NCBI GenBank assembly: GCA_003219695.1
Contig: QHQA01000014.1
Location: forward strand, 26,081 to 90,080
Length of the DNA: 64,000 nucleotides
Origin: Verrucomicrobiota bacterium
GTDB lineage: Bacteria; Verrucomicrobiota; Verrucomicrobiia; Chthoniobacterales; UBA10450
Reading direction: 5' to 3'
Part shown: positions 1 to 31,324 of the stretch, piece by piece
Layout: the number at the start of each line of letters is the position of its first letter
Numbering within the stretch: the first letter of the stretch is position 1
Program-made: the position numbers and the translations under genes
Notes under the pieces: generated by a model
What the model was told of the DNA's origin: nothing
Seen by the model: only the letters and a program-made list of their open reading frames with translations
The model's database searches: none

Positions 1-1542
1 AATCGGTGAGCTGAGATGAAAATGTCGCGCGACGAGAGATGGCTCGATATTTGCCCGATACAATTCACGTCGAATAGACCGCGCAGCCGGGCTTTCCCAG
101 ATCGCGTGCTCGACATTCACGATCGGCGCCATCAATGCCACAAAGCGAAGATCGCACTCGACCATTGCCAGCAATGCGCCGATCCAGCCGCCGTAACTGG
201 TGGCCAGCACGCCGAACTCGCGACAGCCTCGTTCGCGCAAAGCCTTCATCAATTGCCGCAGTTCGATCACCCCTTGGCGCAATCCTTCCGCATTGCGAAT
301 GAGGTCCGGTGTGATGGCAAGCTCGCCATTCCAGTAGCCGCGCGGCACACGCGAATAATGATACGGCAGGTGAACGAAACAAGCGTTCCAGCCGAGTTGG
401 TTGAGGCGTTCTGCGCAGCGACGGTAGCCGATGCCGCTGGCGGACATCAGCGAATGCAAAAGAAGCACTGTCGGCGCAGTAATGCCTTGTGCGCATCGGA
501 AAAAATCCGTGCGCGCGATGTTGTTCGCTGGGAATTGCGTCTTGATCGGGCTGGGCCATGCGATGGCAATCCGGCCGTTTCCGAGTGCTTCAGCGAGAGC
601 CGCGTCGCCATGAGCGGCGTAATATTCTTCGGCAGTAAGGCGCTCGCATGTGCTTACGTAACGCTCCATCTCCTCGCGACTGCGCCCGTTTAGCCGATGC
701 CGGGCATGAAGCAGATTGAACGATCCGCATATAAACCCATCCATTCCCCTCGCGGCGAAACCGCAAAACCCGTGCCGGCGAACTGTAGGGCAACCGCTCC
801 GGTTGCCGGTGACGTCGGCGGCAAGCGAAGCGCTTGCCCTACAATGTTTCATCCGTTCTCGCGGCGGATGCGGCAGATCATCGGGCGTGAGTTGGAATGC
901 TTGTTGCAATTCCGCGTAAAGATTTTTGAATGCGGCAGCCAGCTCGCATTCGATCCGCGCGCGCGCCTTCGATTTTTCACACTCTGGAAAATGTGAGGTT
1001 GCCTTTCCAAACGCGATCCAAATCGGCGTGCGGCGAAACGGCAGCCAGTTTTTTTTCGAGTAAAAGCGATCGCTGCCGAGAAGCACGCACGGCAAAATCG
1101 GAACGCCAGCCATGTGCGCAAGGGTCGCGGCGCCTGGGCGCAGAGGCGCGCCTTCGAGCAGCGAGCGTGCGCCATCGCGAATCCCGCCCTCGGGGAAGAG
1201 ACCGACGACGCGTCCGCTTTTCAGCCGCTCGATGGCGGTGCGAATAGTTTTGCGATCAGCATGATCTCGCTCTGCCGGGAACGCATCGACCGCGTGCAAG
1301 AGGAATCCCACGACTGGCGATCGGAAAAATTCGGCCATGGTCATCCAATCAATTTTTCGCGGCACGGCGAGGGATATCAGGAATGGATCGAAATGACTGA
1401 TGTGATTCGCCGCCAGCACAAAGCCGCCTGCGGGATTCGCGTTTTCGCGCCCCAGCACGCGAACACGTGCGACGCAGCCAAACGGCAGTTTCACGAACAG
1501 TTTGCCGGCGCGGTAGGCTAACGAGTGAAATAGCGAATGCAT
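1..1542 (-). CDS. PlsC-type 1-acylglycerol-3-phosphate acyltransferase fused in frame to an alpha/beta-hydrolase domain (C-terminus beyond left edge)
   Basis: Hand translation of the reverse complement from ATG at 1542 has no stop to position 1: MHSLFHSLAYRAGK...NHISHFDPF...LFPEGGIRDGA...(PlsC NHx4D and FPEG motifs)...ERMKHCRASASLAADVTGNRSGCPTVRRHGFCGFAARGMDGF...PTVLLLHSLMSASG...GVLATSYGGWIGALLAM (hydrolase oxyanion/nucleophile-like region). Not in the supplied ORF track because there is no in-window stop. Confidence 0.75.
   Translation of the reverse strand, partial: MHSLFHSLAYRAGKLFVKLPFGCVARVRVLGRENANPAGGFVLAANHISHFDPFLISLAVPRKIDWMTMAEFFRSPVVGFLLHAVDAFPAERDHADRKTIRTAIERLKSGRVVGLFPEGGIRDGARSLLEGAPLRPGAATLAHMAGVPILPCVLLGSDRFYSKKNWLPFRRTPIWIAFGKATSHFPECEKSKARARIECELAAAFKNLYAELQQAFQLTPDDLPHPPRERMKHCRASASLAADVTGNRSGCPTVRRHGFCGFAARGMDGFICGSFNLLHARHRLNGRSREEMERYVSTCERLTAEEYYAAHGDAALAEALGNGRIAIAWPSPIKTQFPANNIARTDFFRCAQGITAPTVLLLHSLMSASGIGYRRCAERLNQLGWNACFVHLPYHYSRVPRGYWNGELAITPDLIRNAEGLRQGVIELRQLMKALRERGCREFGVLATSYGGWIGALLAMVECDLRFVALMAPIVNVEHAIWESPAARSIRRELYRANIEPSLVARHFHLSSPI
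784..843. repeat. REP-like palindrome TGTAGGGCAACCG...AGCGCTTGCCCTACA (60 bp)
   Basis: Terminal inverted arms TGTAGGGCAA/TTGCCCTACA; 60 nt = 20 codons, lies inside the fused ORF. Confidence 0.75.
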
Positions 1543-8603: not shown

Positions 8604-8620
8604 CTTGGGCGACGTCCTTT

Positions 8621-8763
8621 CTGGGGAGCACAGGCTGCCAGCCTGTCGGTCTCGGCAGCTTGCCGAGGCGGGCAAATTTCGTGCGATTTTAGAATTGCGT
8701 GTTCCAGAAGATGTTGTCGGCAGGGCTGCCGACAACTACAGGCTGGCAGCCTGTGCTCCCCAG
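8621..8763. repeat. ~143-bp BIME-like element, copy 1 (CTGGGGAGCACAGGCTGCCAGCCTGT ... ACAGGCTGGCAGCCTGTGCTCCCCAG)
   Basis: Near-perfect outer inverted arms plus two internal hairpins (GTCTCGGCAGCTTGCCGAGGC; TTGTCGGCAGGGCTGCCGACAA); second copy at 31181-31324. Confidence 0.9.
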
Positions 8764-8800
8764 ACATTGCCGCGAACGTGGGCGAGTGCTACGTAATCAT

Positions 8801-12606: not shown

Positions 12607-12633
12607 TCATTCCGAGCGAAGTCGAGGAATCTC
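12607..12633. repeat. dispersed repeat TGTCATTCCGAGCGAAGTCGAGGAATC
   Basis: Same core at 13349-13375 and, inverted, at 42476-42503. Confidence 0.8.
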
Positions 12634-13329
12634 CAAGTATTGGTTTGGTCGCAACGAGTCCAGCTCACGCTTTGTCAGCGCCCGCCAATGTCCGCGTGGC
12701 AAATCACCAAGCCGCAGATGACCGATTCGAACGCGAACCAGATGTTTGATGCGGTAGCCAACGCCTTCAAACATGCGACGAACTTGCCGATTTATCCCCT
12801 GTCGAAGAACAACACGCAATTTCGTACGCGTGACCGGGCGGAGTTGCGTGATCTGCGCTCGTTGTCCATCGAGAAAAATTCCGCGCAGCAATCTCGGCGC
12901 GAGCGCCGGGTCCCATGACCGATCCAGCGTCACCTCATATTCTTTCTCGATTTTGTAACGAGGATGCGTGAGCCGCTGCGCCAGTTCGCCATCGTTTGTG
13001 AGAAGAAGCAGGCCCCCAGTTTGCGCGTCCAGACGGCCGATGTTGAACAGCCGGGAAAATTTCTGCGGAAGCAGATCAAAGACTGTATCGCGCGCGTGCG
13101 GATCTTTTCGCGTGGAAACAAACCCCGCCGGTTTATGCAGCATAATGGTAAACGCCGGCGCGACGTGAACCAGTTTGCCATCAACTTTGACGTGATCGTC
13201 CGGGCCAGGCTGTGCGCTGAAGTTGATGCACACCTTACCATTCATGGTGACGCGACCCGCCGCGATTAACTCATCACAATGCCGGCGCGATCCGACGCCG
13301 GCGGCGGCGAGGAAACGGTTGAGGCGCAT
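12607..13329 (-). CDS. rRNA pseudouridine synthase (RsuA/RluB family)
   Basis: S4 domain MRLNRFLAAAGVGSRRHCDELI; NIGRLDAQTGGLLLLTNDGE; RQGINRQVRRMFE. Last residues (EIPRLRSE*) are encoded by a dispersed repeat. Confidence 0.93.
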   Translation of the reverse strand: MRLNRFLAAAGVGSRRHCDELIAAGRVTMNGKVCINFSAQPGPDDHVKVDGKLVHVAPAFTIMLHKPAGFVSTRKDPHARDTVFDLLPQKFSRLFNIGRLDAQTGGLLLLTNDGELAQRLTHPRYKIEKEYEVTLDRSWDPALAPRLLRGIFLDGQRAQITQLRPVTRTKLRVVLRQGINRQVRRMFEGVGYRIKHLVRVRIGHLRLGDLPRGHWRALTKRELDSLRPNQYLEIPRLRSE

Positions 13330-13348: not shown

Positions 13349-13440
13349 TGTCATTCCGAGCGAAGTCGAGGAATCCCGTTGCACGACTGTGAGTAGCGCC
13401 ACGAGATCCTTCGACGTCGCTTCGCTCGCTCAGGATGACG
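13349..13440. repeat. dispersed repeat (TGTCATTCCGAGCGAAGTCGAGGAATC ... GCTCGCTCAGGATGACG)
   Basis: Inverted arms TGTCATTCCGAGCG.../...GCTCAGGATGAC; same family as 42242-42503. Confidence 0.75.
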
Positions 13441-13748: not shown

Positions 13749-15551
13749 CTAAAGTTGATTGCTTAGCACTGCGTACGTCCCTGAGGTCGTGACCTGATGG
13801 TAAATGTGAAAGCGGCTGGTCAATAGCTGTTTCCAGTAGTCCGCCCGGCTTTGCTCGACAATTAGATAAACCGGGGTGGGCCGGCGCCATGTTTCCAGGA
13901 CCGCATCTTCATTCAGGAAAATATCAACGGAAGCTCCGCCAAGCGGCGCCGCTTTCCGGCGGTTTTGATTAACAAGAAAGAACTTTCGGTTCAGATAAAA
14001 GATCAGGCTGCTGCTGTCATCGAGGGGCCCTTCGAAAATCGTAATGCCGGCTGCCTCGAGCCGCGGATTTAAAAATCGTGCGACATCGGCGAGTGAAAAA
14101 TAAGGCGCGGTGCGCGCGATACCTGCGATCATACTCAGCCCGATTGGAACCATCGACGCAGCCAGAGCGATGGCAGCGAGTTTCTGGCGGTGTTTGAAAA
14201 TAAAGTAGAGCGCCACCAACGCGAAAACCGTGAGCGAAACCGCTGTGACCACTGCCAACGGCCGTAGTACCAGCCAGGTTGAGATGGGCATGTCGTGCAA
14301 TGCCTTCCAGGCTGTCCAGCGCGCATCCATCGTCCCCCAGTTTCCGTTTAAAGTGCGGGCGGCCCCAGCAAGGAAGAATGCCGCCGCGGCGCTCACCGCG
14401 CCGGCGACACCCACAGCGATTGCGCCTGTGGCGCGCCACACCCCCGGCATCCGGTCCCATGCGACCGCGGCCCAGAGCGCAAACGCGCCCCACATGCTCA
14501 TCGAATAATAATCCTGCCGTTGCCCCAGAAAGAGCAGCGGGACAAAAACGATGCCCATCCAGCAAAGCGGCAACGCATCGGCGAAGGTGATCTCACGCGG
14601 TCGCATCACGCGCTGCCAGGCAAACATCACTCCGGGGAGCAGCGCGATCGACCACGGAAACCACCAAGCCAGATGCATGAGCACAAATTGATAGGCAGGC
14701 ACGCCCAGGTAATCGTGCGTTTCGTCGGAAAGCCCGCGCAGATGCCCCAGCCATTCGGAGCGGATTAAATGACGAAAGTAACTGCGAAAATGCCATTCCG
14801 CCCAAATGTGCCAGGGGGTGACGATTAAAAGAAAGATCGCCACGTATTCCCATCGCAAAAGCGCGCGAAATCGCAGACGTGCTTCGCGATAAAAGATCGA
14901 CAGCAAAAGTAAAATCGCTGCCGGATAAACAAGGCCGAGTAACCCTTTCGTCAGGCAAGCGAACGCCGAGCAAATCCAAAAGCCCACGAACCAGGCACGC
15001 CGATGACGTCGCTGTTGGTAGGCGCACAATCCGCAGAAAATCGCGCCTGCGATGAATGCGCTGACCAGCGGTTCGGGCATGACGATGCGCCCGAGTAGAA
15101 ATGTGCCGCAGAAGCTGAGATAAATCAGACCGGCGATGAAGCCGCGCCAGTAATCCGTGAGTTTCTCGCCGATCAAAAAAATCAGCGCAACCGTGGCGAC
15201 TACCCCCAGCGCGGCGGGCAGCCGGGCAGCGGCTGCGCTGATGCCGAAAAGTTTGAACGAGATAATAATGAGCCAGTACAGCAACGGCGGTTTTTGCAGG
15301 CGCGCGATACCGTCGTTCGTCGGCAGAAGCCAATGGTGATTCGTTACCATCTCGCGCGCGGCTCCCGCGTATTGGCCCTCGGTCTGGCTGTACAAATCGC
15401 CCGTGCCGATCGTCGCGACGTGCAACAGCGCCGCCAGCGCAATTAGAATCACCAACAGAACGTGCCGCGTGGGCGGCGCAGGCAACGCCGGCGGTTCGAG
15501 CAGAGTCTTTTCCAGGGTTAAGCTGTGTGCGCTTGCGGTCATTGACTGCAT
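13749..15551 (-). CDS. ArnT-like membrane glycosyltransferase (GT39/PMT superfamily)
   Basis: TM-rich; SQTEGQYAGAAREMVTNHHWLLPTNDGIARLQKPPLLYWL is the typical ArnT N-terminal motif; start within ORF 13749..15743. Confidence 0.85.
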   Translation of the reverse strand: MQSMTASAHSLTLEKTLLEPPALPAPPTRHVLLVILIALAALLHVATIGTGDLYSQTEGQYAGAAREMVTNHHWLLPTNDGIARLQKPPLLYWLIIISFKLFGISAAAARLPAALGVVATVALIFLIGEKLTDYWRGFIAGLIYLSFCGTFLLGRIVMPEPLVSAFIAGAIFCGLCAYQQRRHRRAWFVGFWICSAFACLTKGLLGLVYPAAILLLLSIFYREARLRFRALLRWEYVAIFLLIVTPWHIWAEWHFRSYFRHLIRSEWLGHLRGLSDETHDYLGVPAYQFVLMHLAWWFPWSIALLPGVMFAWQRVMRPREITFADALPLCWMGIVFVPLLFLGQRQDYYSMSMWGAFALWAAVAWDRMPGVWRATGAIAVGVAGAVSAAAAFFLAGAARTLNGNWGTMDARWTAWKALHDMPISTWLVLRPLAVVTAVSLTVFALVALYFIFKHRQKLAAIALAASMVPIGLSMIAGIARTAPYFSLADVARFLNPRLEAAGITIFEGPLDDSSSLIFYLNRKFFLVNQNRRKAAPLGGASVDIFLNEDAVLETWRRPTPVYLIVEQSRADYWKQLLTSRFHIYHQVTTSGTYAVLSNQL

Positions 15552-16030
15552 TATTCGTCGGAAGCAAGTCCGATTCGGCGTTCGCCCTTGGAATGTCGGA
15601 CGGATTCCGCCTTTGTATATTTTTTCCAATGTTCGGGCAGACGCAGCAGTTTCCCGCTCGGCATCTCGATCAGCGCAAGCATCTGGCGACATTCCGCTAT
15701 GAGCGTGTTGTCCGTCGGTCGTGTAATCCGAAATGCGCACCAAAACCGCGCATGCTGCACCTCATCGAGCCAACCCTCGATCACCAGCCGGTCGCCGAGC
15801 TTGGCTGCGCGGCGATAATGAATCTCGGTGTGCACCACCACCGGATAAGTTTGTTTCTCGGCCATCTCTGCCAGGGCGAGCCCGAGTTGCTCGGCAAGAT
15901 GCGTGCGCGCGATCTCGATAAATCGCAGATACGCAATGTTGGAGACGACGCCTCCGCAATCCGTGTCGAAAAACATCACCTGCACTTCGGTGCGAATGTG
16001 CGGTGTATTTGCGGCCACAAGGACCAACAA
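15551..16030 (-). CDS. YbgC-like acyl-CoA thioesterase (hotdog fold)
   Basis: VQVMFFDTDCGGVVSNIAYLRFIEIAR motif of 4-HBT family. Confidence 0.88.
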   Translation of the reverse strand: MLVLVAANTPHIRTEVQVMFFDTDCGGVVSNIAYLRFIEIARTHLAEQLGLALAEMAEKQTYPVVVHTEIHYRRAAKLGDRLVIEGWLDEVQHARFWCAFRITRPTDNTLIAECRQMLALIEMPSGKLLRLPEHWKKYTKAESVRHSKGERRIGLASDE

Positions 16031-21055: not shown

Positions 21056-21802
21056 ATGAATAAGAGCGAAATAAATTTGTGGCCGGGCGTGAGTGAGGCA
21101 GCACGAAATACATTAATCTCGCGCGATTATAAATTGGGCTCTTTGCCACAGCGAGTCGCGCATTCAGGTGTTCCTGCCGGCGAGCTGGCAAAGGCCGACC
21201 GGTCGAGGCCGGAGATAAAGCGTGCCTGGATCCCCGGCGTCGAAATTTTCTCTCGCACAATCCATCCACAGCGTCATCGCGGAGTTTTCGGTGAATTTGT
21301 CCGACGTGACGAGGGAGTCTTGGCTAAAATCGGATTTTGGCCCAGGCAATGGTCGGCGGCGCGCATGTTTGCACCCAGTGCTAAAGGCTTTCATGTGCAT
21401 CCACCCAGTATTCCGCCCGATACGGCCGCCGAGAAATGGCTGCGACGTTTGTTCATTCGCAGGCCCGAGAATTATTCGTTGCGTCGTTATGATGACGAAC
21501 AGTGGGACGTCACGTTTTTTCTCCAGGGACGCGTGGAGATGATTCTGTGCGATGTGCGCACTGGTTTGTCCAAACGCATCATGCGTTTCTTCATCGATGG
21601 CGACAATCACCACAGCAGCAACAATGTGGGAGTGGTCGTTCCACCCGGGGTTGCGCACGCCATTCGCGTAGAAGGGTCGGAAGACGTGGTCATGGTTTAC
21701 GGGACGAGCACCGTTTTTCATCCCGAATTCGAGGGACGTATTGCGAGCGAAGTCGAGACGGCGGAGTTGCCCGAGGCGTGGCGGGAATTTCTTGGGTTGT
21801 AG
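21056..21802 (+). CDS. cupin / RmlC-like protein
   Basis: VDGDNHHSSNNVGVVVPPGVAHAIRVEGSEDVVMVYGTSTVFHPEFEG-like cupin C-terminal region (FFIDGDNHHSSNN...). Confidence 0.6.
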   Translation: MNKSEINLWPGVSEAARNTLISRDYKLGSLPQRVAHSGVPAGELAKADRSRPEIKRAWIPGVEIFSRTIHPQRHRGVFGEFVRRDEGVLAKIGFWPRQWSAARMFAPSAKGFHVHPPSIPPDTAAEKWLRRLFIRRPENYSLRRYDDEQWDVTFFLQGRVEMILCDVRTGLSKRIMRFFIDGDNHHSSNNVGVVVPPGVAHAIRVEGSEDVVMVYGTSTVFHPEFEGRIASEVETAELPEAWREFLGL

Positions 21803-21862
21803 CGGCGGTCTATGACCGCCGAAGATGTGGCATAACTACGGCGCTCATAGAGCGCCGCTACA
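21797..21862. repeat. palindromic element TTGTAGCGGCGGTCTATGACCGCCGAA...GGCGCTCATAGAGCGCCGCTACA
   Basis: Outer TGTAGCGGCG/CGCCGCTACA arms, two inner hairpins; related copy at 60369-60435. Confidence 0.85.
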
Positions 21863-31180: not shown

Positions 31181-31324
31181 TCTGGGGAGCACAGGCTGCC
31201 AGCCTGTTGTTGCCGGCAACCCTGCCGGCAACACGTTTTCACGCTTGATTTTGCCAGCATGAGAGAATTACCCGGTCTCGGCAAGCTGCCGAGACCTACA
31301 GGCTGGCAGCCTGTGCTCCCCAGA
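31181..31324. repeat. ~144-bp BIME-like element, copy 2
   Basis: TCTGGGGAGCACAGGCTGCCAGCCTGT ... ACAGGCTGGCAGCCTGTGCTCCCCAGA; inner hairpins in reversed order relative to copy 1. Confidence 0.9.

Follow-up and report, generated by a model that had tools for sequence, protein, structure and literature searches.

Comparison of one gene junction across about 40 related genomes, all available as fragmented assemblies, makes it likely that a small deletion fused a plsC gene to a neighbouring hydrolase gene, and that the linker so formed later took up REPINs in frame, which have been turned over there serially. The junction lies near the start of the verrucomicrobial DNA analysed in this study, a stretch of 64,000 nucleotides (the window).

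The fused gene and its linker

The fused plsC-alpha/beta hydrolase gene occupies positions 1-1542 of the window on the minus strand. The initial annotation had described an uninterrupted minus-strand frame running from ATG 1542 past position 1. Following this frame leftwards on the contig (L011, which is G000:C106:22081-32080, G000 being the genome of the window) closed the open reading frame at a TGA about 197 bases beyond position 1, giving a whole gene of 579 amino acids (L011:3803-5542, minus strand). Residues 1-231 (850-1542, minus strand), up to ...DDLPHPPRERM, form a PlsC-type acyltransferase domain: residues 26-154 match Acyltransferase PF01553 (5.2e-23; 81.7 bits against a cut-off of 23), the motifs NHISHFD and LFPEGG agree with the HX4D and FPEG signatures of the PlsC type, and a Foldseek search with the predicted model found PlsC of Thermotoga (5kym). 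The codons for ERMKH (844-858, minus strand) were recognised by comparison with relatives as the conserved C-terminal codons of plsC. The alpha/beta hydrolase domain takes up residues ~266-579 (1-746 and on past position 1, minus strand). Its residues 289-495 match NCBIfam RcgR (1.9e-17; 63.4 bits, under the cut-off of 182) and residues 386-461 weakly match ABHD18 (9e-4; 18.9 bits, under the cut-off of 21). The many alpha/beta hydrolases found by Foldseek support the predicted fold. The second half is read as an alpha/beta hydrolase only distantly related to RcgR and ABHD18. Its putative catalytic residues lie in the serine motif ATSYGG and, for the acid and histidine, in GEFD and GHFGY. The beginning of the hydrolase had been placed near MDGFICG; this is not a conserved start, the ATG being ATC in the sister genome G031 and the residue V, I or A elsewhere.

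Analysis of the linker revealed a GTAG-tagged REP doublet, a REPIN-like palindrome designated type A (TGTAGGGCAAGCGCTTCGCTTGCC ... GGCAACCGGAGCGGTTGCCCTACA; 784-843, minus strand), identified from its inverted repeat, RNA fold, genome matches and GTAG tag. The inverted-repeat search and the RNA fold both agree with the 60-bp palindrome reported at this place by the initial annotation. Two arms of 30 nt each (784-813 and 814-843) are 83% complementary with a gap of 0, and the 60 nt folded as RNA reach a minimum free energy of -40 kcal/mol against a mean of -21.5 for dinucleotide shuffles (n=200; z -5.9), with 0 of the 200 shuffles folding as well. The ends are TGTAGGGC and GCCCTACA, and two inverted GTAG-tagged hairpins lie within (GGCAAGCGCTTCGCTTGCC and GGCAACCGGAGCGGTTGCC). 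The GTAG tetranucleotide is found at the outer ends (tGTAGGGCAAGCG...cgcttgcc and, opposite, GGCAACCGGAGCGGTTGCCCTACa), as in GTAG REPs, and the inverted 30-nt arms forming a stable hairpin are the two inverted REPs with a short spacer by which REPINs are recognised. In form the element matches a GTAG REP dimer or REPIN copy, dispersed and apparently non-autonomous. It amounts to exactly 20 codons, is in frame and encodes residues 234-253 of 579 (CRASASLAADVTGNRSGCPT); the 20-codon join proposed earlier is correct in length, and the final V of the string then quoted falls just outside it. An Rfam search of positions 1-30000 of the window gave no match.

The AlphaFold2 model (alignment of 62 rows) has a mean pLDDT of 88.3, an earlier alignment of 17 rows having given a poor 57.9. 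The sole segment below 50 is residues 232-253, the repeat-encoded stretch plus two residues, in what is taken to be a flexible, disordered linker; low pLDDT is expected anyway in a poorly aligned linker.

Dispersed copies and known in-frame repeats

Searches of the genome of the window with type A found 11 matches at E<=1e-3, or 18 with a 71-base query, some of these matches being both strands of one copy; all of the 33 genomes searched were also positive. Most of eight other copies inspected in the same genome lie between predicted genes or at gene ends and one lies inside tilS. Type A is dispersed, multi-copy and mostly extragenic, as REPINs are. The copy in tilS (L010:548-1837, G000:C44) is a second in-frame insertion that adds more than 20 residues to the PP-loop domain; it is common to G000 and G006 and absent from six other relatives. 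In-frame REP insertion is therefore not unique to the plsC-hydrolase gene. The genome also holds nine Y1_Tnp (RAYT-type) matches, and a Y1 transposase of this kind may mobilise type A. Type A was not found within ~1.5 kb of the ten Y1 transposase loci read, some of which are flanked by other GTAG hairpins.

Other palindromes were observed in the window. A further GTAG-tagged doublet (TGTAGCGGCGG...CCGCTACA) lies at 21798-21862, and the TAG stop of the ORF at 21056-21802 appears to come from its TGTAG; GTAG REPs that supply stop codons of ORFs have been published. Two copies of a longer inverted repeat (TCTGGGGAGCACAGGCTGCCAGCCTGT...), MITE- or REP-like, with arms of 38-40 nt about 65 nt apart, occur at 8620-8764 and 31181-31324. 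A copy of a second palindrome family, type B, is present at 13351-13439 between predicted ORFs 12607-13329 and 13749-15743, and is 77% identical to the repeat in the linker of G024.

In-frame repeats are documented in the literature. GTAG REPs and their dimers occur in frame within ORFs, where they encode 20-30 residues (Di Nocera et al. 2013, PMC3733652); in the same study intragenic GTAG repeats were most numerous in the verrucomicrobial species Opitutus terrae, and Xanthomonas recB was noted to carry different REPs at about the same site. The window element resembles these repeats in being GTAG-tagged, an inverted dimer, dispersed and in frame in an ORF. It differs in lying between the two domains of a fused gene, in a linker occupied across more than 20 species by about five palindrome families, not all of them GTAG-tagged. 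With the REPIN/RAYT system (PMC8049555) it shares two inverted REPs, a short variable spacer, the capacity to form a hairpin and the presence of Y1 transposase genes in the genome. Unlike REPINs, which are described as mostly extragenic (PMC8049555), the copy in the linker is intragenic, and type A was paired with no RAYT among the loci read. Protein-coding genes of Rickettsia likewise carry in-frame palindromic elements (RPE), described as ~150 bp long (PMC10969869) and in some cases as bearing a CGTC tag (PMC3733652). The likeness is that a palindromic repeat in frame adds a peptide to an otherwise normal protein; it is an analogy only, the window element being a 60-bp GTAG doublet with neither the CGTC tag of RPE-4 and RPE-6 nor the greater length of RPE-1.

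Separate genes, fused genes and linkers in relatives

The initial annotation had proposed a comparison of orthologous loci, and this comparison revealed both separate genes and repeat-free fused genes. In most relatives at the order level and in some family members plsC and the hydrolase gene are two adjacent, separate genes, and 13 of the 17 unfused loci read have a one-base overlap (ATGA or GTGA) between the plsC stop and the start of the hydrolase gene. Comparison of these junctions indicates that the ancestral state is two adjacent genes with overlapping stop and start, probably translationally coupled. At about 65% identity or above, the family relatives comprise 38 with fused genes and three (G013, G028, G044) that keep the overlap. 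A sequencing artefact, named earlier as a possible refutation, is contradicted by 37 relatives whose frame also passes through the join without interruption; in G022, fused at this point, plsC carries a frameshift further upstream.

The three unfused family members show how the two frames may have been joined. Their plsC ends in ...RM(A/K)E-TGA, and the ATG of 'RM' stands 8 nt ahead of the hydrolase ATG; in G013 the stretch from the ATG of 'ERM' to that of the hydrolase reads CGAATGGCCGAATGAAA. Removing those 8 nt gives ERM-K..., as read in many fused genes: 'ERM' is retained in most of them, and many have K next.

The refuting condition set earlier, that all relatives share this linker, did not hold: linker sequence differs widely among fused relatives. 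Type A occupies the linkers of G000, G031, G020, G010, G026, G034, G011, G012 and G014, with decayed copies in G018 and G017 (both judged by eye). Type B (CATCCCGAGCGAAGTCGAGGGA..., 91 nt) is found in G024, G006, G027, G001 and G023; type C (AACCACGAAGATC...) in G062, G038, G007 and G022, being low-copy elsewhere; type D (GTGCGCGGACACGTCCGCGC...) in G021 and G003; and type E (GGTAGGGACGCCGCGC...) in G056 and G041, with weak traces in G059 and G015. Types B, D and E are dispersed families of many copies each, with 30 matches to type B and 41 to type E in G000 and 30 to type D in G003. Eight further fused genes have short linkers of 72-84 nt with no recognisable repeat, and these fall in at least two separate clades (G053/G065/G070 and G009/G002/G005/G025/G019). 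Repeat type changes at least 13 times on the tree. Unrelated palindromes at one spot indicate a linker that tolerates insertion more than once. The sister species G020 and G021 are both fused and carry different repeats, type A and type D respectively.

Linker length takes 19 values and changes at least 24 times on the tree; every length is a multiple of three, and no linker contains a stop codon. If frame were irrelevant, the chance of its being kept over 24 changes would be (1/3)^24 = 3.5e-12; this statistic is drawn from fused genes only and may carry a selection bias, against which the other close relatives whose junction is complete (G013, G028, G044) all show the ancestral overlap. No out-of-frame linker was found among the 41 examined, the ancestral overlap aside, and no repeat was out of frame. 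The frame bears on whether the open join might be a chance open frame or an assembly error, the two enzymes being translated separately by re-initiation in the linker. The window gene does have in-frame ATGs at 'ERM' and at 'MDGF', and the ancestral genes overlap at stop and start. However, the frame runs open through the join in 38 family members, linker length changes by threes only, and the MDGF ATG is absent in the sister G031. The G020 linker contains no in-frame ATG, GTG or TTG, so the hydrolase there must be made as part of the fusion. Taken together we regard separate translation as extremely improbable.

A role for the palindrome itself, kept as a working mRNA hairpin or DNA element, for example in ribosome pausing between the domains or in mRNA protection, is scarcely more credible. 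Strong hairpins were found in linkers of different repeat families (G000, G031, G024, G056, G021, G007), and the palindromes of G000 and G031 are identical at 60 of 60 positions. Against this, the linkers of G053, G065, G002, G027 and G018 have unremarkable folding energies (z ~-1 to 0.5) and the older type A copies have decayed. The 60/60 identity was rejected as a sign of special conservation, the flank downstream being nearly as similar (~97% identical). In the same pair (L012 and L019) nucleotide identity rises from ~81% upstream to ~97% from the palindrome onward, which suggests a recombination breakpoint at or near the repeat.

Origin of the fusion and turnover of palindromes

The initial annotation had left two options, that the repeat made the fusion by removing the plsC stop or that it entered an existing linker. 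Insertion into an existing linker fits better, given the repeat-free fused clades and the other palindromes at the same point; the repeat as maker of the fusion fits less well. The proposed series of events would begin with plsC and the hydrolase gene adjacent, stop and start overlapping in ATGA. A deletion of ~8 bp, from the 'ERM' ATG of plsC to the hydrolase ATG, would have put both in one frame, and the old hydrolase leader would have become the linker of the fused protein. With no folding constraint on this linker, in-frame stop-free palindromes could land, decay and be replaced there, leaving type A common to the clade of the window and B, C, D or E in its relatives. The 20 repeat-encoded residues would serve as a spacer only.

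The opposite order is unlikely. Several lineages would each have gained, on their own and from different families, a repeat that was inserted across the ATGA overlap, did away with the plsC stop and had the right length to bring the two frames together. This order would account for repeats lying within a few codons of the ancestral stop, for unfused genes nested among fused ones and for different repeats in different clades, as separate events predict, and GTAG REPs are typically near the 3' ends of upstream genes (PMC3733652). Several fused clades nevertheless have short linkers and no recognisable repeat, the difference between G020 and G021, both fused, indicates that replacement without loss of the fusion clearly occurs, and 'ERM', often followed by K, stands in most fused genes as an ATG-to-ATG deletion predicts. 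It is similarly doubtful that the junction is a site where unrelated mobile palindromes recurrently create or rewrite the fusion, later swaps exchanging the whole linker. A literature search for gene fusions caused by REPs returned nothing relevant. The repeat-free fused clades and the swaps at the same site point to a repeat that rides in the linker as a passenger, and we conclude that it probably did not cause the fusion.

The unfused G013 and G028 nest in a well supported clade of fused genes, so that fusion may be recurrent or reversible. Constraining all fused genes to one clade costs 36 log-likelihood units (AU p 0.07), by which a strict single origin is possible, neither accepted nor firmly rejected. 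Trees of the plsC and hydrolase halves conflict for G012, G008 and G011; this points to recombination between the gene halves, which blurs the history of the locus. The genes may have fused once, with the fusion lost again later, fused several times, or been exchanged between species, and the type A insertion may have come at the same time as one of the fusions.

Verrucomicrobial ORFs with REPs in frame have been described before (PMC3733652); what is new here is the serial turnover of palindromes at one site. In the papers searched, no interdomain linker was found to have been occupied successively by several unrelated palindrome families, and the in-frame REP and RPE insertions known so far concern one gene at a time. 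At the junction described here, about 40 related species form a natural series: their interdomain linker either lacks a repeat or holds a palindrome from one of about five families, and in every case the frame is kept. This series lets one ask how often mobile palindromes enter coding DNA, which frames survive, how one palindrome replaces another, and whether palindromes help gene fusion or follow it.
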